Source: Prevotella sp. (lineage in GTDB: Bacteria; Bacteroidota; Bacteroidia; Bacteroidales; Bacteroidaceae). From it: 32,960 bases of DNA. The DNA lies in NCBI GenBank assembly GCA_017524385.1, contig JAFWSS010000057.1, positions 1-32,960 of the forward strand. The letters are read 5' to 3'. A program made the translations under genes and the position numbers. Below are positions 397 through 21,652 of this stretch, piece by piece. A model generated the notes under the pieces. It was not told where the DNA came from and did no database searches. It saw nothing but the letters and a program-made list of their open reading frames with translations. Every line of letters begins with the position of its first letter. Position 1 is the stretch's first letter.

Positions 397-1563
397 ATGA
401 GCAAGAATGAAGAAACTATGTATGGTGAAGTGAAATTCAGCATGGGTAGGCCAAAAAGTGGAGAGGGAGTCCTTTGGAAGAAAGTGGGTCTTGGTAGCAT
501 GGCCGGCATCCTTCTTGGTGCGGGAGCGCTCTACGGTTATGACCAGTTGGAGAACAATACTGGTTCAGTGAAAGCCACTACAACCGACGACGGCTTGGCA
601 CTGGTAGACAACAATGATAAGGAAGCCTCCGCTGATGGCAAGAACGATGAAGTAGTGGAAGAAAGGATTTCCACCGATGAGCACCTTGCCTCAGCAGACG
701 ACCCCAATGCGGTGATATATGACAGGGCACCGTTGGCCGATGTCGATGATTCCATGACGTTTGAAGAGGCTTTTGCGTCTGCGCGTCAAGAAGTGGGTCC
801 CGGAGGAGTGTTCTATTGGCATGGCGGCATTTACAACACCTATTATGAGGCAGAGTGGGATGCCATGAGCGAAACCCAACAGGCAGAGTTTGCGCAGTCT
901 CTTCATCCTCAGGTGTTACCCGAAGACATTCCAACGGATATCATCGAGGAGCACCCTGAAATGGTGATTCGTGTCCATGTAGAGGGAGAGGATGGCAAAT
1001 ACGTGGTGGAAATCTACGACGATGATAATGTTGTAGTCCATGAAGCCAACCCGGAAGATTTGTTTGCTGATGCCAATGTCGTGGGGCGTGAAGTTGTTGA
1101 TGGCAAGGAAGTCGTGGCTCTTGATACAGACGATGATGGCGAGGCAGATATGATGGTCATCGATGCAGACAAATCCAATAGCCTGACCGATGATGACTTG
1201 GTGCTGGATTTGAAGAGCGAGACAGTGGCAACCGTTGAAGAGATGATGGAGCCCGAGAATTTCATCGAGGGTGACGCAGTGATGGATTATGATGTCATCA
1301 ACGACCACGGCGCAGTACTCGTTGATACAGACCATGACAACGAGCCAGATGTGTTGGTTATTGATGCAGACAACTCAAACAGTTTGTCCTCAGACGACAT
1401 TGTGGTGAACTATGATGATAGGACAGCGGCAACTGTTGGTGACATTGTTGATGATGATGCCACAGACCCAATGTCTGATGATGATTCCTTGGCTTCCAAT
1501 GATGACATCCCTGACGTGTCGCCAGACATGCCCGACTATGTAGATGATGCCCCGTTGGTATGA
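397..1563 (+). CDS. Asp-rich single-pass membrane protein with MSKNEET N-terminus (paralogue 1)
   Basis: I do not recognise a named family. The 388-residue protein has a short, probably cytoplasmic N-terminus (1-29) starting MSKNEETMYGE. A glycine-rich hydrophobic segment follows (about 29-48; G33, G37 and G41 form a glycine zipper), preceded by two lysines that suggest N-in topology. The remaining 340 residues are very acidic. Residues about 105-185 form a core with GPGGVF, WHGGIY and EEAF motifs that is nearly the same in the paralogue at 3061. Two DxDxDG-type repeats near 243-266 and 310-333 resemble calcium-binding loops but lack a standard EF-hand twelfth residue. The C-terminus has a PDMPDYVDDAP motif shared with the paralogues. 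The caspase-like gene follows after 35 bp, so the two are probably co-transcribed. The start is supported by the identical context ATTATGAGCAAGAA at 3061. Confidence 0.85.
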   Translation: MSKNEETMYGEVKFSMGRPKSGEGVLWKKVGLGSMAGILLGAGALYGYDQLENNTGSVKATTTDDGLALVDNNDKEASADGKNDEVVEERISTDEHLASADDPNAVIYDRAPLADVDDSMTFEEAFASARQEVGPGGVFYWHGGIYNTYYEAEWDAMSETQQAEFAQSLHPQVLPEDIPTDIIEEHPEMVIRVHVEGEDGKYVVEIYDDDNVVVHEANPEDLFADANVVGREVVDGKEVVALDTDDDGEADMMVIDADKSNSLTDDDLVLDLKSETVATVEEMMEPENFIEGDAVMDYDVINDHGAVLVDTDHDNEPDVLVIDADNSNSLSSDDIVVNYDDRTAATVGDIVDDDATDPMSDDDSLASNDDIPDVSPDMPDYVDDAPLV

Positions 1564-1598
1564 TGAAACCATGGTCCATTTGAACAAGAAAGAATAGT

Positions 1599-2312
1599 AT
1601 GAGAAAACTTTTGGCAGCATTGTTGCTGCTGACGGCAGTGACTCTCCATGCACACTACTATGTGGTGTGCGTGGGGATTTCTGATTATCCCGGTTATGAA
1701 AATGACCTCAGGGTGAGTGCCAACGACGCGATGGTCATCCAGAAGATATATTCCGCCAACGGACATGCCGACGTGAGATGCCTCACAGACAAAGACGCCA
1801 CCGTGGCAAATGTGAAAAGGGCAATGAACGAAACATTCTCCAAGGCAAAAAAAGGCGATGTGGTGCTGCTCTTCTTCAGCGGCCATGGCGACCCAAGAGG
1901 AATAGGTTTCAGGTGTTATGACGAATTGCTCCATTATCATGATGTGACGATGGCTTTGATGAGCAGCAAGGCGAAGACAAAGGTGGTATTGGCAGATGCC
2001 TGCCTGGCTGGGAATATGCGAACATCCGGAGTGGAGGAAGACGCTGTTGGCAAGAAAGCCAAGGACGTTATGTTTTTCCTCTCCTCACGGAGTGGAGAGA
2101 ATTCCATGGAGTCACGTTATGCCAACAGCATCTTCACCATCTACTTGGAACGTGGGCTACGTGGAGGAGCCGATGTCAATCGCGACAGAGCCTTGACAGC
2201 CAAGGAGTTGTATGACTTTGTGCACAATGGTGTGATAGAAATGTCCCATGGGCGGCAGCACCCGGTGATGTGGGGCAATTTCGACAAAGACATGGTGCTC
2301 ATCAAATGGTGA
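1599..2312 (+). CDS. Exported caspase-like (C14 family) cysteine protease
   Basis: This 237-residue protein begins with a clear signal peptide (MRKLLAALLLLTAVTLHA), so it should act outside the cytoplasm. The rest is one caspase/metacaspase fold (peptidase clan CD, C14). The catalytic dyad is visible as H96 in SGHG, after a hydrophobic strand, and C135 in DACLAG. There is no membrane anchor or extra domain. Bacterial C14 relatives of metacaspase type usually cleave after Arg or Lys and some need calcium; which applies here cannot be read from sequence. It sits 35 bp after an acidic membrane protein with calcium-loop-like repeats, so that protein or its paralogues are candidate substrates or regulators (inference). 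Confidence 0.9.
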   Translation: MRKLLAALLLLTAVTLHAHYYVVCVGISDYPGYENDLRVSANDAMVIQKIYSANGHADVRCLTDKDATVANVKRAMNETFSKAKKGDVVLLFFSGHGDPRGIGFRCYDELLHYHDVTMALMSSKAKTKVVLADACLAGNMRTSGVEEDAVGKKAKDVMFFLSSRSGENSMESRYANSIFTIYLERGLRGGADVNRDRALTAKELYDFVHNGVIEMSHGRQHPVMWGNFDKDMVLIKW

Positions 2313-2321
2313 GAGTCGCTA

Positions 2322-2474
2322 TGACCAAGCCCCGCAAGTAAGAGGCCGGTGCGCACTTAGGGGTCGACGCCTCCGAGCGTCGCATTGACCAAGCCCCGCA
2401 AGCAAGAGGCCGGTGCGCACTTAGGGGTCGACGCCTCCGAGCGTCGCATTGACCAAGCCCCGCAACCAAGAGGC
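2322..2474. repeat. 64-bp tandem repeat with internal hairpins, about 2.4 copies
   Basis: Unit 1 (2322-2385) and unit 2 (2386-2449) differ at a single base, and a 25-bp partial third unit follows (2450-2474). Each full unit contains the hairpin CGACGC-CTCCGA-GCGTCG (2365-2382 and 2429-2446), with a 6-bp stem and 6-nt loop. The block fills most of the gap between the caspase and LytTR genes, and no open frame uses it. There is no run of T after the hairpins, so it is not a standard terminator, though it could attenuate or stabilise RNA. Confidence 0.9.
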
Positions 2475-2547
2475 TTCACCATTGCGAGGTTGATTTCCAT
2501 GAATAATTCCAGTTAGAGACCCGTCAAATCCTATCAATATCTATACC

Positions 2548-2907
2548 GTGAACTACATCATCTATTGCTCTCGCGACCATTTGATCAGACTTGAGATAGC
2601 AAAAATCATTTATTTCGAGGCTGACGGCAACTATACCAAGGTCGTTATGGCCAACAAACTGAAGTCGGTGTTGGCTATCAGTCTCGCCAATGTGGAGAAA
2701 AGCCTCATCACCCAACTTGGAGAAAACGCGGCAAAATTCATGAGGGTGGGGAAACGCTTCATCATCAATCGTACGTTCATCTATGAGGTGAACCTATCCA
2801 AGCAATGCCTCATCTTATCCGACTTCTCCCAGTTTGTCTTCCAACTTCCCGTTTCAAAGGCAGCACTCAAAAGCATCAAGGACTTGGTGGCCAATGTGAA
2901 GGAATGA
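2548..2907 (+). CDS. Stand-alone LytTR DNA-binding domain protein
   Basis: This 119-residue protein is almost entirely one LytTR domain. It shows the typical IIYFEADGNYT segment near residues 20-30 and the FMRVGKRFIINRTFIYEVN segment near 68-86, which matches the conserved 'RVHRSFLVN' region of the family. There is no receiver domain, membrane segment or histidine kinase partner nearby, so how it is controlled is unknown. The start codon is GTG; no in-frame ATG fits the domain start better. Its stop lies 7 bp before a 21-bp direct repeat upstream of the acidic membrane protein at 3061. It is likely the local regulator of both promoters carrying that element (inference). Confidence 0.85.
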   Translation: MNYIIYCSRDHLIRLEIAKIIYFEADGNYTKVVMANKLKSVLAISLANVEKSLITQLGENAAKFMRVGKRFIINRTFIYEVNLSKQCLILSDFSQFVFQLPVSKAALKSIKDLVANVKE

Positions 2908-2914
2908 AGTGGAT

Positions 2915-2975
2915 GGACATTTCATCACGGAAAAAGGATATTTCATCATCAAAACCCGTCATTTTGTGGAAAATG
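2915..2975 (+). promoter_or_regulatory. Conserved upstream element, copy 2, with 21-bp direct repeat
   Basis: Two adjacent 21-bp copies, 2915-2935 and 2936-2956, agree at 15 of 21 positions and at 12 of the first 13 (GGAYATTTCATCA). The second copy and its right flank (2936-2975) match 275-314. The element lies about 50-110 bp upstream of the -7 motif at 3010, a usual position for an activator site. Binding by the adjacent LytTR protein is inferred from spacing and position. Confidence 0.55.
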
Positions 2976-3009
2976 GGCGATGGCAATAGTATAATCTTTA
3001 TGAAAAGAG

Positions 3010-3017
3010 TATCTTTG
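3010..3017 (+). promoter_or_regulatory. -7 promoter element TATCTTTG
   Basis: This matches the Bacteroidetes -7 consensus TAnnTTTG, 43 bp before the ATG at 3061. No TTTG is seen at the expected -33 position, which fits a promoter that depends on an activator bound at the upstream repeat. Confidence 0.55.
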
Positions 3018-3060
3018 TATATGAAAAAAACATTGTTTAACATATAAAATCTTTAACATT

Positions 3061-4233
3061 ATGAGCAAGAACGAAGAAACCTTGTATGGTGAAGTGAATT
3101 TCAGTATGAGAAATTCGAAACGTAGTGGTGGAAGCCTGTGGAAGAAAGTGGGCTTCGGCTCTGTCGCTGGCATTCTCCTTGGTGCAGGGGCGTTGTATGG
3201 CTACGACCAATACCAGAATGGGTCACATGGAACGGGTGCGTCGTCGGCATTCGGCAGCAGTTCCAACGTATTGGCGGATGATAACAACGGTGAAAACGGC
3301 CAAAATGTTGTAAACGACCACGACCCTTCTGGCGACCAGTTGGCAGCTTCCACCTCAGGTCAGGCCAGTGGAAGCGGCGCGGGACACGTTGCAGCCACCG
3401 GTGCACATTCGCCTGTGCCGCACGTCGTAGATGTTGACGACCCAAACGCAGTGATCTACGAAGAGGCTCCTCTGGCGGATGTTGACGATGACATGACGTT
3501 TGAAGAAGCTTTCGCAGAAGCAAGGTCCGAGGTAGGTCCTGGTGGAGTATTCGTTTGGCACGGAGGTATCTATAGCACATACAATGAGGAAGAGTGGAAC
3601 TCCATGAGTGAGTCCCAGCATACCGAATATGCACAGTCTGTGGATGTCGAGATTCTTCCCGAAGACATTCCGGTAGATCTCATCGAGCAGCACCCCGACC
3701 AATACATTACAGTCACCGTCTCTAATGGAAATGGAAAAGAGGTAGCCATTGTCTCGGATTTTTCGGGTGATGAGCCGGAAGTGGTCGTTTACCATAATTC
3801 GGGCGTAGACCCAGCCAATGCCAACAATATTGTTGCTGCTGATGGATATGATGGGCAGTCAGATGATGTGGATGCTGTCGATGACGTGACTGTTGAAGTT
3901 GAAGAAGCACATTTCATTGAAGGAGACAATGTGCTCCAATATGGTGAAGTGGATGGCCATGAAGCCGCTGCAGTAGATTTGACAGGCAACGACGAAGTGG
4001 ACGTCTTTGTTGTTGATGCAGACGACTCTCACGACCTTTCCGACCCAGACGTGATGGTCTTTGAAAATGGCATAGTGACCACTTATGGTGATGCTGTGGA
4101 AGCAGTGGAAGCATCAGAAGATGTGGTCGAAGACCAAGACCCCGGAGCAGACATCCTTGCGAGTACTGATGACAACCCAGATGTGGCTCCAGACATGCCC
4201 GACTACATCGATGACGCCAATATCCTGGCTTGA
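3061..4233 (+). CDS. Asp-rich single-pass membrane protein with MSKNEET N-terminus (paralogue 2)
   Basis: This is a 390-residue paralogue of the protein at 397-1563, of unknown family. It shares the N-terminal tail (MSKNEETLYGEVNFSM), the LWKK boundary and the same glycine-zipper segment (about 29-48; G33, G37, G41). The GPGGVF/WHGGIY/EEW core is at about 125-210, and the acidic C-terminus has PDMPDYIDDA. Residues about 50-125 are a low-complexity Ser/Gly/Asn linker longer than in paralogue 1. Only one good calcium-loop-like repeat remains (about 306-330); the first has drifted. It has its own regulated-looking promoter and is followed after 45 bp by the short family member at 4279. The core is much better conserved than the linker, which suggests a folded functional domain outside the membrane. 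Confidence 0.85.
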   Translation: MSKNEETLYGEVNFSMRNSKRSGGSLWKKVGFGSVAGILLGAGALYGYDQYQNGSHGTGASSAFGSSSNVLADDNNGENGQNVVNDHDPSGDQLAASTSGQASGSGAGHVAATGAHSPVPHVVDVDDPNAVIYEEAPLADVDDDMTFEEAFAEARSEVGPGGVFVWHGGIYSTYNEEEWNSMSESQHTEYAQSVDVEILPEDIPVDLIEQHPDQYITVTVSNGNGKEVAIVSDFSGDEPEVVVYHNSGVDPANANNIVAADGYDGQSDDVDAVDDVTVEVEEAHFIEGDNVLQYGEVDGHEAAAVDLTGNDEVDVFVVDADDSHDLSDPDVMVFENGIVTTYGDAVEAVEASEDVVEDQDPGADILASTDDNPDVAPDMPDYIDDANILA

Positions 4234-4278
4234 CCCAAGGCACGGTAGCGATATCTTCAACCATTGATATACACCATT

Positions 4279-4713
4279 ATGAGTAAGAATGAAGAAACCG
4301 TCGAAATGGAATTGCCAGGCATCGACGACGACGTGATGCTCTTAAGCAAAGGCGGCGATATGAATGACGACGACGTGGTGGTCGTATATGAAAATGACGA
4401 TGACATCGTCGAAGACTACGACACATTCGCCCATGGTGATGACGATGTGTATGTCATCGGTACGGGAGATGATGTTTCCACCTTGGACGCTACGGGTGAT
4501 GACGTGGTGGAGGTAGTGGTGGTTGACATGGATGATGTCGATTTGCCTGCCGCCCCCGATGTATTGGTGTATGAAAGTGATACCTTCAACAACGTAGCCG
4601 ACTTGGTGGAAGAGTCTTCACCCGACGTAATGTGCGACGATGATGTCTTGGTGGATTACGATGCCATGAATGACGACTCCCCCGACTTCATCGAAGACTC
4701 TCCTTTGCTCTGA
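4279..4713 (+). CDS. Short Asp-rich MSKNEET-family protein without membrane segment
   Basis: This 144-residue protein is extremely acidic, with long runs of Asp/Glu mixed with Val. It keeps both ends of its larger neighbours: the N-terminal MSKNEET and a C-terminal PDFIEDSPLL that resembles PDYVDDAPLV. It lacks the membrane segment, the linker and the GPGGVF core, so it is probably soluble and cytoplasmic. I chose the ATG at 4279, not one 15 bp upstream, because it gives the same MSKNEE start and ATTATGAG context as both paralogues. It ends 34 bp before a strong terminator. Function unknown; it could be a decoy, buffer or adaptor version of the longer proteins (inference). Confidence 0.75.
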   Translation: MSKNEETVEMELPGIDDDVMLLSKGGDMNDDDVVVVYENDDDIVEDYDTFAHGDDDVYVIGTGDDVSTLDATGDDVVEVVVVDMDDVDLPAAPDVLVYESDTFNNVADLVEESSPDVMCDDDVLVDYDAMNDDSPDFIEDSPLL

Positions 4714-4747
4714 CAATGAAAATCGGAGACGGAAACCTGCATAGCAT

Positions 4748-4777
4748 GCACGCTCCTTCATGGAGCGTGCGTTTTTT
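4748..4777 (+). terminator. Intrinsic terminator closing the acidic-protein block
   Basis: A perfect 9-bp GC-rich stem GCACGCTCC/GGAGCGTGC (4748-4756 and 4762-4770) with a 5-nt loop is followed by a T run (4772-4777) and a second T run at 4781-4786. Confidence 0.92.
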
Positions 4778-4830
4778 GCTTTTTTGAACCCACTTTGAAA
4801 AATCCTGTTTGAGCAAATATCGGTGTTAGT

Positions 4831-4935
4831 TATCCCCTCCCCTCGAGGGAAGAGGCAGAGGTGGGGTCTGTAACTTGTTGTTTTTCAAGACTTATTCACC
4901 CCACCTCAACCCCTCCCCTGCGAGGGGAGGGGAGA
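4831..4935. repeat. MITE-like inverted-repeat element
   Basis: A left arm at 4831-4866 and a right arm at 4899-4935 are imperfect inverted repeats of about 36 bp, sharing CCCCTCCCCTCG and GAGGTGGGG blocks, around a 32-bp AT-rich spacer. Each arm is itself partly palindromic. There is no transposase. It lies in the gap (4714-5067) between the terminator and the kinase promoter. It could be a non-autonomous mobile element or a dispersed intergenic repeat. Confidence 0.7.
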
Positions 4936-4996
4936 TGCGCACCGCCCTTTTGCTCCCTGTCCGTTTTTTCAAGTGGTCTCTTTTTTCTTTTTATAA

Positions 4997-5027
4997 TTTG
5001 AAGTTTCGTTTTTTTTGTTTAATTTTG
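4997..5027 (+). promoter_or_regulatory. Bacteroidetes-type promoter of the kinase pair
   Basis: The -33 motif TTTG (4997-5000) and the -7 motif TAATTTTG (5020-5027) are 19 bp apart, close to the Bacteroidetes consensus. The ATG at 5068 is about 40 nt downstream. The repeat element seen before the acidic-protein genes is absent here, so the kinases are not obviously in the same regulon. Confidence 0.75.
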
Positions 5028-5067
5028 CATATCCGTTTCAAATATCTATCTCTTCAATCACACCTAT

Positions 5068-7275
5068 ATGCAAGACAATACTTATCCTTTCGCATTGGAA
5101 GTAGGGACTAGACTCAATAATGACACATACGAAATAGTCAAAGTCCTAGGTCAAGGCGGCTTTGGCATCACCTATGAGGCAAAGGATCTTAATCTCGACA
5201 GGCATCTCGCCATCAAGGAATTTTTCGTGGGCAACGCATGCCAAAGAGGACAGGATGGCAAGACCGTCGAGGTGCCATTGAAAACCACCAAAGACTTGTT
5301 TGATCGTCAACTGAAAAAATTCCAGGGTGAGGCAAAAATCCTTGCAAAATTGCAAAACAAGCATCTTGTCACCATATACCATTTTTTCAAAGAAAACGGC
5401 ACTTCCTATTTTGTGATGGACTATGTCAGAGGGAAGAGTTTGCGCGACTTGATAGCAGAAGTCCACCATCTTGATGAATATACCGTGAAGAATCTCTTTC
5501 TCGAGCAGATGCTCGAAACCCTTGAATGCATCCACAAACAGAATCCACCGCTTTGTCACTTGGACATCAAACCGGAAAACATCATGGTGGATATGGAAGA
5601 GAACAACATCATACTTATCGATTTCGGAGCCAGCAAATACACAAACGTCACTGGTGGCAGGTCGAGATTGTCTTCCATGGTTGTCTATTCTCCCGGATAT
5701 GCTCCTATTGAGCAAACATCGTCAGATTTGAACTCCATAGGTCCGTGGTGTGACTTCTACGCCTTAGGGGCAACAATGTTTACCATGCTCACGGGCTATG
5801 ATCCTTTCGAGCCGTCAGAAATCATGAACGACCACTCGCCGAAAAAGGAAATGACCATTCCGCTTCCACCGGCGCTGACAGAACAGATGAAGGAACTGGT
5901 CATATGGATGATGAATCCATTGAAAGATAAAAGACCGCATTCGGTAGAAGAGATACGTGATTTCCTGGGTGACCAACTGAGCCCCGAGGCGATGTTCAAT
6001 AAGGGTGAGGACTATTATGATGGAAAGAACGGATGCGAACAGGATGATGCCAAGGCTGTGAAATGGTATGTCAAGGCAGCCGACAAAGGCAATGCGGATG
6101 CCCAAAACTCTCTCGGCTTCATGTATCGTAACGGTCGTGGGGGGTTGGCTAAGGATGATGTCAAGGCAGCGGAATGGTATCGCAAGGCTGCTGAACAGGG
6201 ACATTCCGAAGCACAGAACAACCTTGGTTTCATGTATGAATATGGCTATGGTGTGGAACAGAGTTATAAAGAGGCTTCCAAGTGGTATGAGAAGTCTGAG
6301 AAACAAGGCAATGCGAGTGCACAGTTCAATCTTGCCATAATCTATTATGAAGGGAAAGGCGTGAAGAAGAACATGCAAAAGGCAAAAGACTTGTTCTTGA
6401 AAGCGGCCGAAAATGGGCATTCCGGAGCGCAATACTATCTTGGAAAAATGAATGCAGCAGGTCAGGGGGGGGCAAAGGACTTGGCAGAAGCCTTCAAGTT
6501 GTTCCGAAACGCAGCTGAACATGGTCATGTCTTTGCACAATATGAACTTGCCTTGATGTACAAGGAAGGTAAAGTGACTGACGTGGATGATGAAGAGGCA
6601 TTCAAATGGTTCCAAAATGCAGCGGAACAAGGGCATTGCAATTCACAATATGAACTTGCCTTGATGTACAGGGATGCCATAGGAACTGACAAGAATGAAA
6701 AGGAGGCAGCGGGATGGTTCCGAAAAGCTGCCGAACAGGATCATGTGCAAGCACAGTGCGAACTGGGCAAGATGTACGCGGAAGGCAAAGGTGTGAATAA
6801 AGATGTCCAGTTGGCTAAGTCATGGTTGGAAAAGTCGGCTGGCCAAGGCAATGAGGCAGCAAAACGGCTGCTGTGTCTTCCCCCGTTTGTCGTTAGGAAA
6901 AAGGTTTTCCTCTATTATGAAGGCCCCGATGCATTCTATCAATTAAACGAAGAAGGTGATGAAAACAAATACACCAGGCTTGGTTACAAATGCGAATTGG
7001 TTGAGAATAAAACGGTCTTTGGCCGCAAGGCAAGAACAGCCCTTGCCCCAATTCAGTTGGAAGACCGCTCGAAAGAAAAATTCATGAGCAGGGACCAGGT
7101 AGAATTCCATGTCACTTATGTGGACAACCAACCTAAGGTGACCGTTATGAGTTTGAAAAAAGATAACCTGGTAAGGATCAATGGGAAGCCGTCGCCAAAG
7201 GATGTAGAGACGGAGATTCACAACGGCGACAAATTGACCATGGGCAACAAAACAATCACGCTGAAAATCGAGTAA
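5068..7275 (+). CDS. Ser/Thr protein kinase with Sel1 repeats and C-terminal FHA domain (paralogue 1)
   Basis: This 735-residue protein has no signal peptide or membrane span, so it is cytoplasmic. The kinase domain (about 20-300) has the glycine loop GQGGFGITY (28-36), Lys50 in AIKEF, a catalytic HLDIKPEN with D166 (HLD in place of HRD), and DFG at D185. It therefore looks active. Seven Sel1-type repeats of about 36 residues plus a partial eighth span about 325-605 and should form a protein-binding solenoid. The FHA domain (about 645-735) has GRK at 652 and an SxxH-type site read as S674-R-D-Q677, with Gln where His is usual. FHA domains bind phosphothreonine, so self-recognition or recruitment of its own product is likely. 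The paralogue starts 73 bp downstream with no terminator between, so an operon is likely. Substrates are unknown; the MSKNEET proteins just upstream are candidates by position only. Confidence 0.93.
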   Translation: MQDNTYPFALEVGTRLNNDTYEIVKVLGQGGFGITYEAKDLNLDRHLAIKEFFVGNACQRGQDGKTVEVPLKTTKDLFDRQLKKFQGEAKILAKLQNKHLVTIYHFFKENGTSYFVMDYVRGKSLRDLIAEVHHLDEYTVKNLFLEQMLETLECIHKQNPPLCHLDIKPENIMVDMEENNIILIDFGASKYTNVTGGRSRLSSMVVYSPGYAPIEQTSSDLNSIGPWCDFYALGATMFTMLTGYDPFEPSEIMNDHSPKKEMTIPLPPALTEQMKELVIWMMNPLKDKRPHSVEEIRDFLGDQLSPEAMFNKGEDYYDGKNGCEQDDAKAVKWYVKAADKGNADAQNSLGFMYRNGRGGLAKDDVKAAEWYRKAAEQGHSEAQNNLGFMYEYGYGVEQSYKEASKWYEKSEKQGNASAQFNLAIIYYEGKGVKKNMQKAKDLFLKAAENGHSGAQYYLGKMNAAGQGGAKDLAEAFKLFRNAAEHGHVFAQYELALMYKEGKVTDVDDEEAFKWFQNAAEQGHCNSQYELALMYRDAIGTDKNEKEAAGWFRKAAEQDHVQAQCELGKMYAEGKGVNKDVQLAKSWLEKSAGQGNEAAKRLLCLPPFVVRKKVFLYYEGPDAFYQLNEEGDENKYTRLGYKCELVENKTVFGRKARTALAPIQLEDRSKEKFMSRDQVEFHVTYVDNQPKVTVMSLKKDNLVRINGKPSPKDVETEIHNGDKLTMGNKTITLKIE

Positions 7276-7348
7276 GAGGGGGTGTCTCTGAAAGATGAAC
7301 CGGCATCATATCATTTTATTTCAATTATAACTTATCAAACATACTCCT

Positions 7349-9742
7349 ATGCAAGATAAATATCCTTATGCATTGGAAATAGGCACCAGGCTACATGATG
7401 ATACTTATGAAATCATCAGGGTGTTGGGGCAAGGCGGTTTTGGCATCACATACGAGGCTAAGAACTTATTCCTGGACAGGCGCGTCGCTCTCAAGGAATT
7501 TTTCATGGGAGATAGCTGTGGACGAGGAGAAGACGGAAAGACGGTCATCGTACCCTTGAAGAATCTTGTAGGGCAGTTTGAGACACAACGGGGCAAATTC
7601 ATAGGAGAGGCAAAGAAGATGGCGAAATTGCGAAACAAGCATATCGTCACGGTCTATGCCTTTTTCAACGAAAACGATACTTCATACATTGAGATGGACT
7701 ATGTCGAGGGCCAGAGTTTGTATGATTGGCTTAACCTCAACCAGCAACCGCTGGATGAAGGTACTGTGAGGTTTGTCGTTCTCAAACAGATGCTTGAAGC
7801 CCTTGAATGCATCCACAACCAGGACCCTCCACTGTGCCATCTGGATATCAAACCGGAAAACATCATGGTGGACATGAAAGACTACAACATCGTGCTCATC
7901 GACTTCGGAGCCAGCAAATTTGCATCCAACAAGGGTGGGATGATGTCTTCCATGGTAGCGTATTCTCCCGGGTATGCTCCTCTTGAGCAAGCGATGCGAG
8001 ATGTGGAAAACATGGGTCCTTGGACAGACTTCTATTCTCTTGGAGCAACGATGTTCACCATGCTCACGGGGTATGAGCCTTTTCCTCCTTCGGAAATCCT
8101 GTCCGACCCTTCCCCTACAAAGGAAAACACCATTCCTCTTCCCCCAGACCTGAGTGATCAGATGAAGCAACTGATTTTATGGATGATGGCGCCCAATAGA
8201 GCAGAAAGACCTCAATCGGTGCAAGAAATCCGTGAGTTCTTGGATGGCCCACAGTCGTCATCGACGCCATCGCCTTATGAAACACAACCCCAGCCACAAC
8301 CCATGTCACCCGAGGAGATGTTCAACAATGGCGAAGAATGTTATTATGGAAGGAATGGAAATCCCCAGGACTACTCCAAGGCGGTGGAGTGGTATCGCAA
8401 GGCCGCTGAACAAGATTATGCCGATGCTCAAAACTCCCTTGGGTTCATGTTCCTGAATGGTAAGGGAGTGGAACAGAGCGATACCGAGGCTGTTGAATGG
8501 TTTCGCAAGGCCGCCAACCAAGGTCATGCCGCCGGTCAGTACAACTTAGGTCTGATGTATCAGAATGGCCTGGGGGTGGATAAGGATTTCACACAGGCCG
8601 CCAATTGGTTCCTTATGGCAGCAAATCAGGGATATGCCGATGCACAAGATAGTTATGGGTCGTTGTGCCAAGATGGCGAGGGTGTGGCTAAGAATGAGAA
8701 AGAGGCCGTCGCGTGGTTTGCCAAGGCAGCCAATCAAGGCAATGCCAATGCTCAGAACAACCTCGGGTACATGTATCGAAACGGCCGTGGTGGTTTGGCA
8801 AAGAGCGATGCCAATGCAGCTGAATGGTATCGCAAGGCAGCCGCCCAAGGGCATTCTGGCGCCCAGAACAACCTCGCATTCATGTATCATTATGGCTTCG
8901 GTGTGAAACGGAACATGAAAGAAGCCTTGAAGTTGTATGAAAAGTCTGCCAATCAAGGCAATACCAGTGCGATGTTCAATCTTGCCTTAATAAGTATGAA
9001 TGAATTTGGCGACCCGCAAAAGGCCTTGGGCTTGTTTGAAAAAGCAGCGCAAAACGACCACACAGGGGCGCAGTATTATTTGGGAAAGTTGTATCAAAGT
9101 GGCCAAGGTGTTACCAAGAACTTGAGTAAAGCCTTCCAATGGTATGCCAAGGCGGCAGAGAAAGGGTATGTCGGTGCACAATATGAACTTGCCTTGATGT
9201 GGAAGGATGGGCAGGGAACCGACAAGAATGAAATAGAGGCCGTCAAATGGTTAAAAAAAGCAGTAGGACAGGGTTATGACAAAGCACAGTGCGAACTGGG
9301 CAAGATGTACCTTTATGGCATGGACAAGGATGTCAAGGAGGCAAAGAAATGGTTGGAACAGGCAGCGGGACAAGGTAATGTTGAAGCAAGAAAGATTTTG
9401 AGTCGCCCTCCTTTTGTCTTAGAAGCAAAGAAGAAGGCTTACCTCGTCTTTGAGGGCAGAAAGTATGAGTTGATGAAGAGGGATGTGACCGTTGGGCGCA
9501 GGGCGGATTCCTCGAAAGCCGATATTCAGATAGAAGATCCATCCAATTACATGAGCCGCCACCATGCGGACCTCACTCTGACATTTGTTGACAACCAACC
9601 AAGGGTTACCGTCAAGAGTGTGAATGAAAGGAACCTTGTAATGGTCAATGGTTTGAAATTGCCTGTAGGTGAAGAGAAGGTTCTTAACAACCATGACCGA
9701 TTGACCATGGCAGACAAGACGATGATGCTGCTAATAGAATAA
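7349..9742 (+). CDS. Ser/Thr protein kinase with Sel1 repeats and C-terminal FHA domain (paralogue 2)
   Basis: This 797-residue tandem paralogue of the preceding gene has the same start (MQDKYPYALEIGTRL versus MQDNTYPFALEVGTRL). The kinase domain (about 19-300) carries GQGGFGITY (27-35), Lys49, HLDIKPEN with D166, and DFG at D185. A Pro/Gln/Ser linker (about 308-328), absent in paralogue 1, leads to nine Sel1 repeats and a partial tenth, two more than the neighbour. The FHA domain (about 710-797) keeps the canonical SRHH (S736 to H739) and GRR at 716, unlike the Gln-substituted site of paralogue 1. Duplication followed by repeat gain or loss and divergence of the FHA pocket suggests the two kinases bind different partners. 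Confidence 0.93.
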   Translation: MQDKYPYALEIGTRLHDDTYEIIRVLGQGGFGITYEAKNLFLDRRVALKEFFMGDSCGRGEDGKTVIVPLKNLVGQFETQRGKFIGEAKKMAKLRNKHIVTVYAFFNENDTSYIEMDYVEGQSLYDWLNLNQQPLDEGTVRFVVLKQMLEALECIHNQDPPLCHLDIKPENIMVDMKDYNIVLIDFGASKFASNKGGMMSSMVAYSPGYAPLEQAMRDVENMGPWTDFYSLGATMFTMLTGYEPFPPSEILSDPSPTKENTIPLPPDLSDQMKQLILWMMAPNRAERPQSVQEIREFLDGPQSSSTPSPYETQPQPQPMSPEEMFNNGEECYYGRNGNPQDYSKAVEWYRKAAEQDYADAQNSLGFMFLNGKGVEQSDTEAVEWFRKAANQGHAAGQYNLGLMYQNGLGVDKDFTQAANWFLMAANQGYADAQDSYGSLCQDGEGVAKNEKEAVAWFAKAANQGNANAQNNLGYMYRNGRGGLAKSDANAAEWYRKAAAQGHSGAQNNLAFMYHYGFGVKRNMKEALKLYEKSANQGNTSAMFNLALISMNEFGDPQKALGLFEKAAQNDHTGAQYYLGKLYQSGQGVTKNLSKAFQWYAKAAEKGYVGAQYELALMWKDGQGTDKNEIEAVKWLKKAVGQGYDKAQCELGKMYLYGMDKDVKEAKKWLEQAAGQGNVEARKILSRPPFVLEAKKKAYLVFEGRKYELMKRDVTVGRRADSSKADIQIEDPSNYMSRHHADLTLTFVDNQPRVTVKSVNERNLVMVNGLKLPVGEEKVLNNHDRLTMADKTMMLLIE

Positions 9743-9815: not shown

Positions 9816-10178
9816 TCAGTATTTCGCCTTTTCCATCGCTTCCCGGGCCCATTTCATTCTGAGTTGTGCCTTTTCCCTTGCATCCTTTGCCCATGCCATC
9901 CTTAGTTTTGCCTTGTCAGTGGCATCGTTGGCCCATTGTATGTAGGTTTTGGCCCTGTCGGCATTGTTGTGGCGCGAGTAATAGTCGGCCTCGCGCAGGT
10001 AGCCTTGTGCCTTGTCGTTGTAGTAATTGGCCTCACGCTCATGTCCCTCAGCTTTCCGGGTATAGTAGTCGGCCTCGCGCATGTAATCTTTCGCCTTGTT
10101 GGTGTAATAGTCATTTTGTCCCCATGCCGGCAGGCTTAGTGCAAGAACGGCAAGGATGCAGAAAACCACTCTTTTCAT
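9816..10178 (-). CDS. Small exported helical-repeat protein
   Basis: Not assigned to a known family. The start at 10178 gives a typical signal peptide (MKRVVFCILAVLALSLPAWG) and a mature protein of about 100 residues; a longer frame upstream would place 14 polar residues before it. The mature part is built of YY-x-x-KA-x-x-Y-x-REA units of about 14 residues repeated three times, then Ala/Lys/Arg-rich helices ending AREAMEKAKY. It should form a charged amphipathic helix or coiled coil in the periplasm or at the envelope. It faces the kinase pair tail to tail. Confidence 0.75.
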   Translation of the reverse strand: MKRVVFCILAVLALSLPAWGQNDYYTNKAKDYMREADYYTRKAEGHEREANYYNDKAQGYLREADYYSRHNNADRAKTYIQWANDATDKAKLRMAWAKDAREKAQLRMKWAREAMEKAKY

Positions 10179-17123: not shown

Positions 17124-18713
17124 TCAAGCATTTCCTATGACCCATTCATCGAGGGTTCTGCTGTCGAGGTTGAAGTGCAGGCCGCACTTCACCACTCGGC
17201 GCCCTTCGGTGGCGTAAGCCAGGGCATAGCCCTTGGCTTCAATCTGTTCTAATGCTTTCTGGGCAGTCTCGTGCATCTTCAGCTCGAAGACGTAGGTGAC
17301 GGCGGGCATCAGCACCACCATGTCTATCCTGCCGCCATGGCACTTCACTTGTGTGCGGGCATATACGTTGAGCATTGAGAAGATGAGGTAGAAGGTGTAT
17401 TCGTAGAATCCCTCCACGTTGGCCATCTCCTCCAACTTCTTCTTGAAACCCTCCACGTAGGGCAGCCCAGCAAGGAAAGCCTGCATCTCCTGCAAGGCCA
17501 GCTCCAGGTCGTCCTTCTTCAAGGCTCGCCAGAACTTCAGGGCGAAGCCCATGCGCACCACATCGGTTTGCAAGCCGAGATACGTTGGCAGCAACCCCTC
17601 TGTATATCCCACCTGCACCTCCTGGTTAGGAATGGCGAGGGTGTATGTCTCCGTTTCCCTCTCATAGTCCTTGATGGTGAGGTATCCACTCTGGTATAGC
17701 AGCGGCAATGCCGAAGTCATGGCCTCAGTGGGTTTGTCGAAATCCGATACCGCAGCCTCCAAGTGGCCGAGTGTCGTGATGTCGGTCTGGAACTTCTGCA
17801 TCTGCAGGATAAGGTAGGCTGGTGTGCCACTGTCGAACCAGTAGTTGCCGACCTCGCCTAGGTCAAATGCCTTGAACAGGCTGAAGGGGTTGTAGATTTC
17901 AGGTGACTTGCGTGAGAACTTGTATCCGTCGTAGCGCGTCTTCAGCCGCAGGTGCATCTCCTTCGGCGTGCAGTCATTGTTCTCTGCCAGCAGGGCGATG
18001 TCGGGAGCCAGCGTGGTGGTCAGCTCCTCCTCGGTGATGCCGCAGAGGGCGGCATACTTGGGCAGCATCGATATGACGGTGATGTTGTTGATGGTGGAAA
18101 AAATGCTCAGCTGCGAGAATTTCGTTATGCCGGTAATGAAGCAGAACTTGATTATGGGTTCCAGCATCTTCAGCCGTTGGTAGAACTCCTGCAGCACCTC
18201 GCGCATGTCGTGAAGGCTCTCCCCTTCGTGAAGCACATCTAAAAGCGGCGCATCGTACTCGTCGATGATGATGGCCACCTGCAGTCCGGTCTGTTTGTAG
18301 GCCCGCTCCACGACACCAGCAAAGCGCATGCCAGGTGAGGTCTCGCTGTGATTACGACCATAGAGTGCTTCCATCTTTTCCATCTGCCGCCCCAGCTCAT
18401 CCTTCACTCCCTGCGGGGGCAGGTGCTTGGCGCCGCTGAGGTCGAAGTGCAATACAGGGTACTGTTTCCAGTCCCATTCCAGTTGGTCGGCCTTCAGTCC
18501 CTTGAACAGTTCGCGCTCGCCCGCAAAGAACGAGTGGAGCGTCGATGCCAGCAACGACTTGCCGAAACGTCGCGGACGGGCGAAGAAGAGGAAGGGGTTG
18601 TTCTCCTGTGCCAATTCCCACACCATGTCCGTCTTGTCCACATACACATAGCCTTCGCGCCTCAGTCGCGAGAATGTCTGTATTCCTACGGGGTATTTTC
18701 TCTTCATTGCCAT
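17124..18713 (-). CDS. AAA-ATPase-like protein with C-terminal PD-(D/E)XK nuclease-like domain
   Basis: This 529-residue protein belongs to a family abundant in Bacteroidetes (AAA-ATPase_like plus PDDEXK_9 architecture). Near the N-terminus are YVDKTDMV and a Walker A-like FFARPRRFGKSLL; Walker B is VAIIIDEYDAPL. The C-terminal nuclease-like fold shows RIDMVVLM followed by VFELKMHET, fitting D-x(n)-ExK. The family is often multi-copy and has been suspected of a mobile or defence-related role; the true function is unknown. I chose the ATG at 18713 because the -7 motif TATATTTG on the minus strand (18738-18745) rules out the longer frame at 18740. MKRKYP at 18707 is also possible. Confidence 0.88.
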   Translation of the reverse strand: MAMKRKYPVGIQTFSRLRREGYVYVDKTDMVWELAQENNPFLFFARPRRFGKSLLASTLHSFFAGERELFKGLKADQLEWDWKQYPVLHFDLSGAKHLPPQGVKDELGRQMEKMEALYGRNHSETSPGMRFAGVVERAYKQTGLQVAIIIDEYDAPLLDVLHEGESLHDMREVLQEFYQRLKMLEPIIKFCFITGITKFSQLSIFSTINNITVISMLPKYAALCGITEEELTTTLAPDIALLAENNDCTPKEMHLRLKTRYDGYKFSRKSPEIYNPFSLFKAFDLGEVGNYWFDSGTPAYLILQMQKFQTDITTLGHLEAAVSDFDKPTEAMTSALPLLYQSGYLTIKDYERETETYTLAIPNQEVQVGYTEGLLPTYLGLQTDVVRMGFALKFWRALKKDDLELALQEMQAFLAGLPYVEGFKKKLEEMANVEGFYEYTFYLIFSMLNVYARTQVKCHGGRIDMVVLMPAVTYVFELKMHETAQKALEQIEAKGYALAYATEGRRVVKCGLHFNLDSRTLDEWVIGNA

Positions 18714-18737
18714 ATACCTTATTGCATAATGTGATTG

Positions 18738-18745
18738 CAAATATA
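18738..18745 (-). promoter_or_regulatory. -7 promoter motif for the AAA-ATPase-like gene
   Basis: The minus strand reads TATATTTGC, matching TAnnTTTG, 25 nt before the chosen start. No clear -33 is visible. Confidence 0.45.
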
Positions 18746-19609: not shown

Positions 19610-21652
19610 ATGAGAAGTTTGTTTTTGAAAATGGCAGTTTGGCTGTTGTTGCTTGCAACTCCCGTAATGGCGCAAGAGCATCATCGGCTGACAAACTTGC
19701 CGCACCTTTATGTCAACACCTTCGACGGGCGTGATGTCACCAGCAAGACCACGCAGGTGCTGGCTCGCTTGTGGCTGGTGGACGAGAATGACGAAGTGGC
19801 ATTCCATGATTCCATCCTCATCAGAGGGCGAGGGAATTCCACTTGGAACCTAGCCAAGAAACCCTATCGCATCAAGTTTCCCAAAAAGACACGTTTTCTG
19901 GGTGAGGAGCGTGCCAATGCCAAGAAATGGACCTTGTTGGCCAACCATGGCGACAAGACCCTCTTCCGCAACGCCTTGGCTTCTTATATCGGCGACCTCT
20001 GCGGACAGAAATTCACTCCTGCAGCCAAGTTTGTTGACTTCACGCTGAATGGTAATTACAGGGGGTGCTACCAGATCTCCGACCAGATAGACGTGCGCAA
20101 GAAGCGGGTTGACATCGAAGAGCAAGACCTCCCCCTGACATCCGAGAGCAACGTCACCGGCGGTTACCTTTTGGAGGCCGACGGGTTCAAGGACTACCAA
20201 AGTGGTGTCAGCGGATGGTCCACGCCCAAAGGGGTGCCGATGACCATCCATTACCCTGACGACGAGGAAATCAAGAACCGCCAATATGCCTACATCAGGC
20301 AATTTGTCAATGACTTTGAAACCCGGCTCTTTTCCAACACCTACGATGACCCGGAAAAAGGATATCGCGCATGGGTGGACAGCACCTCTCTGGTCTCATG
20401 GTACCTCGCTTCTGAAATCATGGCCAATCCCGACTATGTGTGGAGCCTGTATTTCTACAAGGACCAGAATGATGACCATCTCTATTTCGGACCTTTATGG
20501 GACTGCGACATCGCCTTCAACAACGACAACAGGTTGAGCAACACCACTGCCAGCCTGATGGCGGATGTGGCTTTTACAAACAATGGCATGGAAAGATGGG
20601 TCAGGCGCTTCTGGGCAGACGAATGGTTCCAGAGACTGGTTTTCAGAAACTATGTACATTTGTATTCCCAGGGTTTGGAAGAGAAATTGCTCCAAAAAAT
20701 CGACAGCCTGCAGACACTTCTGATGGAGTCGCAGCAACTCAACTACCAGAAATGGAGCATCAATGTGCGTGCGTTGCGTGAAAAAGTGCTGTATTCCACC
20801 TACGATGAATATGTTGACGACTTGCGCCGCTTCGTTTCCGGCCGCTTGCCGGCGCTGCTCCTGGCCTTCGCCCAGCGACAACCCGACGATGTGGATGTGG
20901 ATGAATACGACAGGGTGACACCGGGCTTCACCACTTCGGCAGAGTATTGCCATGTCATCACCAATGTGGGCACGTCGACCGTCTTCGACATTGATGCTGC
21001 AGGAAAGGTCGTCGCCAACGCCCGCAACAATCAGTCCTACAGCCAACAATGGCAAATCATCACCTTGGGCAACGGCTATCAACAGATACTCAACCGCATG
21101 AACGGCATGGCTTTGGCAGACCCCACCCAAGGGGAAACTACGGAAACCACCAACTTGGGGACCCAACTCATCGTTGCCTTTCCCGACTCCACCGACAAGG
21201 CACAGCAGTGGCATATCGTGAAACAGACGGAGGGACGCTACAACCTGAACAACAGGAAAACACATCATACGGCCAATCTGACGGGCGGAAACAGGGCCAA
21301 CGGAACGGTCATCCAAAGTTATTCCAACAACGAGCGTAACGCCACCAGCAATAACAGGTTGTGGGGCATCGACATCGTGGATAGCATCCCCGGCTACGAC
21401 ACGGCCATCCGTCATGTGGAAGAGTTGCCTTTGGAGTATGCCCTTGCCTACGACCCCACAGCCCACTTCCTGCATTTCGGTGCGGATGAACCAGAACGGC
21501 TTGCTTTCAAGGTGGATGTGTATGACCAACAAGGGCGACAGGTCATGCGATTTGTAGCAAGCAAAGGTGCCAGTGTGGAGCATCTGCCCAAAGGCATCTA
21601 TGTCATCTCCTGGTATTGCAATGGAAGGCATTCTGTGAAATTCCAACGATAA
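19610..21652 (+). CDS. Secreted CotH-family protein with ricin-like lectin domain and T9SS-like tail
   Basis: A 680-residue exported protein with a signal peptide ending VMAQ (about 1-22). A CotH kinase-like domain covers about 30-400, with IRGRGNSTW, KKPYRIKF, LLANHGDKT, NYRGCYQISDQ and the metal-site-like PLWDCDIAFNND. CotH proteins are atypical secreted kinases; the target here is unknown. Residues about 445-590 look like a ricin-type beta-trefoil lectin with repeated QxW-type motifs (QQWQII, QQWHIV). The last 65 residues (VDVYDQQGRQV and LPKGIYVI, ending SVKFQR) fit a type IX secretion C-terminal sorting domain, so the protein probably reaches the cell surface. The nitroreductase gene follows after 22 bp. 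Confidence 0.9.
   Translation: MRSLFLKMAVWLLLLATPVMAQEHHRLTNLPHLYVNTFDGRDVTSKTTQVLARLWLVDENDEVAFHDSILIRGRGNSTWNLAKKPYRIKFPKKTRFLGEERANAKKWTLLANHGDKTLFRNALASYIGDLCGQKFTPAAKFVDFTLNGNYRGCYQISDQIDVRKKRVDIEEQDLPLTSESNVTGGYLLEADGFKDYQSGVSGWSTPKGVPMTIHYPDDEEIKNRQYAYIRQFVNDFETRLFSNTYDDPEKGYRAWVDSTSLVSWYLASEIMANPDYVWSLYFYKDQNDDHLYFGPLWDCDIAFNNDNRLSNTTASLMADVAFTNNGMERWVRRFWADEWFQRLVFRNYVHLYSQGLEEKLLQKIDSLQTLLMESQQLNYQKWSINVRALREKVLYSTYDEYVDDLRRFVSGRLPALLLAFAQRQPDDVDVDEYDRVTPGFTTSAEYCHVITNVGTSTVFDIDAAGKVVANARNNQSYSQQWQIITLGNGYQQILNRMNGMALADPTQGETTETTNLGTQLIVAFPDSTDKAQQWHIVKQTEGRYNLNNRKTHHTANLTGGNRANGTVIQSYSNNERNATSNNRLWGIDIVDSIPGYDTAIRHVEELPLEYALAYDPTAHFLHFGADEPERLAFKVDVYDQQGRQVMRFVASKGASVEHLPKGIYVISWYCNGRHSVKFQR

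Follow-up and report, generated by a model that had tools for sequence, protein, structure and literature searches.

Members of Bacteroidota carry a recurring gene set, in several versions, that places a predicted membrane scaffold and a putatively exported caspase among genes for phosphothreonine signalling. One version lies in a 32,960-nucleotide stretch of DNA from Prevotella sp. (contig JAFWSS010000057.1; the whole stretch is called the window here), where an operon on the forward strand comprises gene A, a caspase, a LytTR regulator, gene B, and gene C (397–4713), followed by two FHA-bearing Ser/Thr kinases (5068–9742). An initial annotation had placed the first five genes correctly and delimited a block at 397–4713. 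The gene content of that block stands, but its limits are too narrow because the two kinases at 5068–9742 are part of the same module. The module is real and recurring. Read directly from the DNA are its gene set, its repeated neighbourhood, the kinase and caspase motifs, a motif in the scaffold tail, and a lower lysine content of the scaffold outer part in loci that carry a caspase. What the module probably encodes, with moderate confidence, is a switch of kinase, phosphatase, and FHA domains whose target, reached through the membrane scaffold, is an exported caspase that cuts at basic residues.

Recurrence of the gene set

The neighbourhood was counted in a six-frame profile scan of 50 loci encoding the core domain of the scaffold (core loci), with 20 stretches from 17 genomes as controls. 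The core loci hold a zinc-ribbon/FHA gene in 45 cases, a gene for an FHA-membrane-zinc-ribbon protein (FHA-membrane gene) in 40, PP2C in 40, a Ser/Thr kinase in 39, a caspase in 32, and LytTR in 25; recall in these loci is favoured because the profiles were built partly from them, and the 50 are partly dependent, with L075/L076, L108/L109, and L110/L111 sharing genomes and L047, a near-copy of L051, included. In the controls a single PP2C is the only module gene, and an earlier scan of the same 20 stretches additionally gave one borderline LytTR (E 4.9e-5). Where at least 5 kb is available on both sides (n = 28), the corresponding counts are 27 for zinc-ribbon/FHA, 24 for FHA-membrane, 25 for PP2C, 25 for kinase, 21 for caspase, and 14 for LytTR. 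The initial annotation had proposed a search with the core profile and expected repeated co-occurrence with C14 and LytTR genes, which is what the scan returns across Bacteroidota, with neither family in the controls. Its model of a regulated envelope protease with dedicated membrane partners is reasonable and is indirectly backed by the lysine loss described below, but it overlooked the commonest partners, which are the phosphothreonine-signalling genes (two FHA families, PP2C, and Ser/Thr kinases), and LytTR occurs in half of the loci.

Within the family, the recurring order is LytTR, FHA-membrane-zinc-ribbon, core protein, caspase, zinc-ribbon/FHA, PP2C, and kinases. At more distant loci the caspase often follows PP2C (L074, L099, L110, L111, and Runella). 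The compact form of the window is also that of locus L035, with caspase, LytTR, core protein, C, and one FHA kinase. On the Runella rosea plasmid NZ_CP030851.1, an FHA gene, a hypothetical protein with the core, a second FHA gene, PP2C, and a caspase stand in a row. The genes LytTR, FHA-membrane, core, zinc-ribbon/FHA, and PP2C also occur on MT838606.1 (L078), a record from human faeces named "UNVERIFIED: Bacteriophage sp." that looks like bacterial DNA.

Among 301 family genomes, 27 have a relative of protein B, spread over 12 of 30 genera and with the genome of the window counted, as do two named Prevotellaceae metagenome-assembled genomes (L034 and L035); there was no match among the 20 genomes listed for the window's own genus. 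The core profile matched 14 of 393 genomes of the order, 5 of 395 in a phylum sample, and 6 of 395 in a class sample; these samples overlap, and every count includes the window's genome. Among 201 family genomes, 18 have the core, 25 the FHA-membrane gene, and 17 both, so that the FHA-membrane gene accompanies the core in 17 of its 18 genomes and occurs in 8 of the 183 that lack the core. The caspase was found in 17 of 101 family genomes, 13 of which also have the FHA-membrane gene; the samples of 101 and 201 genomes appear nested. In the four loci read that have an FHA-membrane gene and no core (L049, L142, L143, and L144), a neighbouring protein combines a hydrophobic segment rich in glycine with an acidic part and ends in a PDYxND-like sequence, and the core therefore seems optional.

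Scaffold, tail motif, caspase, and lysine content

Proteins A and B are the scaffold proteins of the window and share 50% identity in alignment. Gene A (397–1563) encodes 388 residues with a core at about 112–171, and gene B (3061–4233) encodes 390 residues with a core at about 137–196. Each has a 29-residue tail (1–29), a glycine-rich hydrophobic segment at 30–46 that is presumably a helix, and an outer part that is acidic and has few basic residues. The outer part of B (341 residues) has two only, Arg155 within the core and Lys226. Protein A matched no Pfam family above cut-off and nothing in NCBIfam at E 0.1. Gene C (4279–4713; 144 residues) begins with MSKNEET at ATG 4279, the mechanically called open reading frame (ORF) starting earlier at TTG 4264, and has an acidic C-terminal tail and no core; inspection by eye revealed no hydrophobic segment. 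The identical N-terminal MSKNEET and related acidic C-terminal tails that had been noted for A, B, and C are there. In membrane proteins, basic flanking residues tend to stay inside. Since basic residues precede the helix of A and B, the tail is predicted to be cytoplasmic and the C-terminal outer part to lie outside the cytoplasm.

The GPGGVF core of B (3469–3648) is predicted to fold as helix-strand-strand-helix-helix. A model of the 66-residue core built from 7 sequences has a mean predicted local distance difference test score (pLDDT) of 84 and a predicted template modelling score of 0.65, and compared with solved structures no fold stands out. Alignment A2 used 30 of 32 core copies. About 38 residues of the core have weak counterparts in predicted viral proteins (best E 0.014) and resemble part of a protein on each of three IMG/VR contigs: L112 (protein 4054–6912, residues 558–596), L113 (8174–9052, residues 170–206), and L114 (7259–10495, residues 915–949). 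These core-like proteins adjoin genes that by eye resemble virion genes.

The scaffold tails are enriched in an acidic-Thr motif, [DE][DEKA]T.[LIVFYMW]. It occurs in 32 of 51 tails, against a mean of 2.6 and a maximum of 7 in 500 shuffles, a figure that is partly circular because the pattern was written after the tails were read; among background N-termini it occurs in 7 of 337. The figure for zinc-ribbon/FHA proteins is less circular: 17 of 38 carry the motif compared with 55 of 337 longer background proteins, or 21 of 523 Thr residues compared with 64 of 7411, and in 14 of the 17 it lies at residues 43–91, past the zinc ribbon. The motif is weaker in kinases (55 of 2393 Thr) and at or below background in PP2C, FHA-membrane proteins, and caspases. 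In protein A, Thr7 of MSKNEETMY (415–417) fits the pattern, with Tyr at +2, and is a predicted phosphosite. Because kinase, phosphatase, and FHA genes adjoin the motif, a phosphosite read by FHA would be the natural interpretation; Thr14 of Agrobacterium TssL is reported to be such a site (PMC3953482).

The caspase-like protease (1599–2312; 237 residues) matches Peptidase_C14 at E 4.9e-20 and 72.7 bits (gathering score 21.4) and has the His96 (1884–1886) and Cys135 (2001–2003) dyad as well as Asp43 and Asp133. Its N-terminus is hydrophobic and signal-peptide-like, so that the exported C14 protease with intact dyad of the initial annotation holds, export being suggested by the N-terminus. Across 37 caspases (36 ORFs from 33 loci plus Runella), His, Cys, and Asp133, two residues before Cys, are kept in all and Asp43 in 34. 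Of 31 scored for hydropathy, 27 have a hydrophobic segment, close to the N-terminus in the rows read. At L076 (7272–8837), PP2C and caspase are fused in one 521-residue protein whose joint has a basic and then a hydrophobic stretch, signal-anchor-like by reading and below the hydropathy cut-off; with such a joint the phosphatase would face the cytoplasm and the protease the outside. The caspase, like the scaffold outer part, is thus predicted to reside outside the cytoplasm. Against the EACC1-associated caspase model (NF047832) it scores 67.7 bits, under the 140-bit threshold, and its closest solved sequence is 3bij (GSU0716; E 8.3e-10). In TbMCA2, the S1 pocket is proposed to include Asp95 and Asp211 (PMC4357240). 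If Asp43 and Asp133 correspond to this pair, the caspase may cut after basic residues, as metacaspases and orthocaspases do.

Scaffold outer parts beside a caspase are poor in lysine. Median Lys plus Arg (K+R) is 1.6% in caspase loci (n = 33) and 3.8% in loci without (n = 18; p = 3e-5), and Lys is 0.43% versus 2.7%. With labels from longest-ORF picking the K+R difference has p = 0.0007 in place of the 3e-5 from six-frame labels, and within Bacteroidales, the order of the window, p = 1.8e-5 (29 versus 14). L039 was labelled caspase-positive by hand, since its contig carries a caspase at a distance of about 11 kb, and it is not one of the 32 of 50; L047 does not enter the counts of composition and motif, and L106, which is too short, does not enter those of tails and outer parts. 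Compared with the seven non-caspase loci not classed as cut, a hand-made list, K+R again differs (p = 0.0014) and Asp plus Glu differs slightly (p = 0.049), the latter showing no difference when all loci are compared (p = 0.53). Among 20 residues tested singly, D and F differ slightly (p = 0.014 and 0.035). On a tree drawn from the 66 core residues alone, 24 of 28 informative contrasts run in the expected direction, and a rank test of contrast size gives a weaker result (p = 0.018 for K+R and 0.087 for Lys). Tails, FHA proteins, PP2C, and kinases have no K+R difference by caspase presence. Grouping by zinc-ribbon/FHA also gives p = 0.005, yet with only 4 cases lacking that gene. At L108 a single residue of the 411 in the outer part is basic, against 65 predicted from the composition of its neighbours. 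A scaffold lysine content that depends on the caspase would be a direct and cheap predictor of where the protease is located and what it cuts.

Operon layout and surroundings

The remaining genes of the module in the window are a one-domain LytTR DNA-binding regulator (2548–2907; 119 residues, GTG start), which matches LytTR at E 5.2e-10 and 39.9 bits (cut-off 22.6) as initially annotated, and the two kinases, each with Sel1 repeats and a C-terminal FHA domain by Pfam and motifs. The first (5068–7275; 735 residues) has the kinase motifs and reads SRDQ at the FHA "SRxH" position; the second (7349–9742; 797 residues) reads SRHH. Promoter-like TAnnTTTG motifs, which we take to be the Bacteroidetes −7 element, lie before gene A (203–210, motif scan, with TTG upstream of the motif), before gene B (TATCTTTG, 3010–3017, read from the sequence), and at 5020 ahead of the first kinase (motif scan). 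The motif at 3010 has no entry in the scripted scan, which required an upstream TTG or TTT. An intrinsic-terminator-like hairpin of 11 pairs followed by a T run lies at 4746–4772; as a class such hairpins number 9 against a shuffle mean of 8.7, with no enrichment. The promoters and terminator proposed as bounds of the block are therefore recognizable as motifs and hairpin, but the module continues past the hairpin.

The window is one contig (C57) of a 5.05-Mb, 272-contig assembly with 6.56% contamination, and the sequence upstream of gene A is missing because window position 1 is the contig end. There, at 25–82, are about five copies of GGGAGTTAAAT, which might be an array of regulator sites or merely the repeat that broke the assembly. 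A 64-bp unit is repeated 2.6 times between caspase and LytTR (2311–2474). It has 33 matches spread over many contigs of the same genome and is therefore an interspersed repeat, which argues that the window contig belongs to the assembly. Downstream of the second kinase is a 42-bp tandem repeat of 2.7 copies (9826–9937). Farther on are an AAA-ATPase/PDDEXK_9 protein (17127–18740) and a CotH kinase with a ricin-type lectin domain (19610–21652). Ten flanking window proteins that were scanned are mostly ordinary enzymes, plus a transporter.

Proposed mechanism, alternatives, and related systems

In the proposed mechanism, the kinases would add phosphate to the acidic-Thr motif of the cytoplasmic scaffold tail, which reads MSKNEET in the window, and PP2C would remove it. 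FHA domains, supplied by the kinases themselves in the window and by separate membrane and zinc-ribbon proteins elsewhere, would bind the phosphorylated tail and assemble a complex at the inner membrane. On the outside, the acidic part and core domain of the scaffold may hold or gate the exported caspase, which would cleave after basic residues in other proteins of the envelope; having lost such residues, the scaffold would be spared. LytTR would tune expression, and the trigger is perhaps envelope stress or phage attack. Put as a transmembrane relay, in which Thr phosphorylation read by FHA controls an exported Lys/Arg-directed caspase via a scaffold purged of its cleavage residues, the idea is a tentative one. 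If true, the relay would be a Bacteroidota counterpart of receptor-scaffolded caspase control, tying the eukaryote-like kinase, PP2C, FHA, and caspase into one recurring system of Bacteroidota and linking an exported bacterial caspase to a regulator and to a partner in the membrane.

The scaffold could also be a substrate. In an outside-in sensor, an envelope signal would cause the caspase to cut the scaffold at a conserved core Arg, and loss of the outer part would alter the complex of tail, FHA, and kinase and so report inward. Among the 33 caspase-locus outer parts, 15 have three or fewer basic residues in 135–411 residues; the core Arg is among them in all 15 and is the sole basic residue in L041 (6760–7689), L099, L100, and L108. 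However, this Arg is kept in 54 of 57 core copies, loci without a caspase included, the three copies with His in its place (L053, L055, and L056) are all in caspase loci, and it sits in helix 13–24 of the core model, all of which makes such a sensor unlikely. Doubtful as well is an anti-phage or abortive-infection role, with the caspase as a killing effector freed by a kinase/phosphatase sensor. To our knowledge an exported caspase is unusual for anti-phage systems, and the flanking window proteins are mostly ordinary enzymes and a transporter. PADLOC, run on ten proteins, matched generic kinase models (the best 25 of 32 in two lists), caspase models, and one weak zinc-ribbon model (8.9e-4), but no coherent system. 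The distribution is patchy (27 of 301 family genomes), as might be expected of defence, and a kinase/phosphatase module with FHA is reported to confer phage defence (PMC11341870). That an acidic protein pair stands beside a caspase and LytTR by accident is very improbable. Acidic low-complexity proteins are easily over-read and gene content differs among loci, but the gene order recurs at many loci of different families while the 20 controls, under the same scan, have one PP2C and nothing else of the module.

Several observations weigh against the preferred reading of a phosphorylation switch acting on an exported caspase, in addition to the partly circular tail figure and the core-only tree. 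No caspase was found at 18 of the 50 core loci, some of them cut by contig ends. The six-frame scan found neither PP2C nor a separate FHA gene near the core genes of the window contig; FHA-membrane, zinc-ribbon/FHA, and PP2C genes do lie side by side on contig C70 of the same genome, which speaks for the reading, but given the contamination that contig may derive from another organism. The full-length model of B is unusable (pLDDT 33). Arg in the outer parts is equal between groups, the difference being confined to Lys. The outer part of protein A retains 13 basic residues even though a caspase stands beside it; outside the order, K+R reaches 2.6–5.9% in four caspase loci; the Runella outer part, with a caspase present, has 14 of 381 (3.7%); and PP2C outer parts are not depleted in 13 caspase loci versus 6, a test that used the older longest-ORF labels, in which antisense ORFs hid caspases such as those at L044, L046, and L056. 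Because these last four run contrary, the lysine effect is shown within Bacteroidales only.

As the initial annotation had supposed, this gene set is undescribed in the open-access literature searched. In the threonine-phosphorylation pathway of the type VI secretion system (T6SS), the PP2C phosphatase PppA opposes the kinase. There, according to PMC3953482 (PpkA/Fha with TssL), a Ser/Thr kinase and FHA act on Thr14 near the N-terminus of an inner-membrane protein. The window likewise has Ser/Thr kinase and FHA by Pfam, but A and B have no Pfam match to the TssL family, the VipB sheath (PF05943) has 0 matches in the window's genome and, of 14 control genomes, matches E. coli only, and a caspase belongs to the gene set of the window. 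The kinase-kinase-phosphatase module, as far as the available portion of PMC11341870 describes it, shares PP2C, paired kinases, and kinase-borne FHA, with no mention there of a scaffold or caspase. The window kinases have no match to its cold-shock domain at E 1, carrying Sel1 repeats instead, and no adjacent PP2C was found near the core genes of the window. Conflict systems likewise count caspases, kinases, and FHA domains among their effectors and are built round NTPases and the like in the accessible parts of PMC7159879 and PMC8195603. No NTPase was seen among the recognized recurring families of the module, in which some recurring clusters are unannotated, and the caspase of the window, by contrast, appears to be exported. 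Metacaspases and orthocaspases resemble it in the p20 motifs, the His/Cys dyad, and the Asp two residues before Cys, and it differs from them by its signal-peptide-like N-terminus and its short form of 237 residues.

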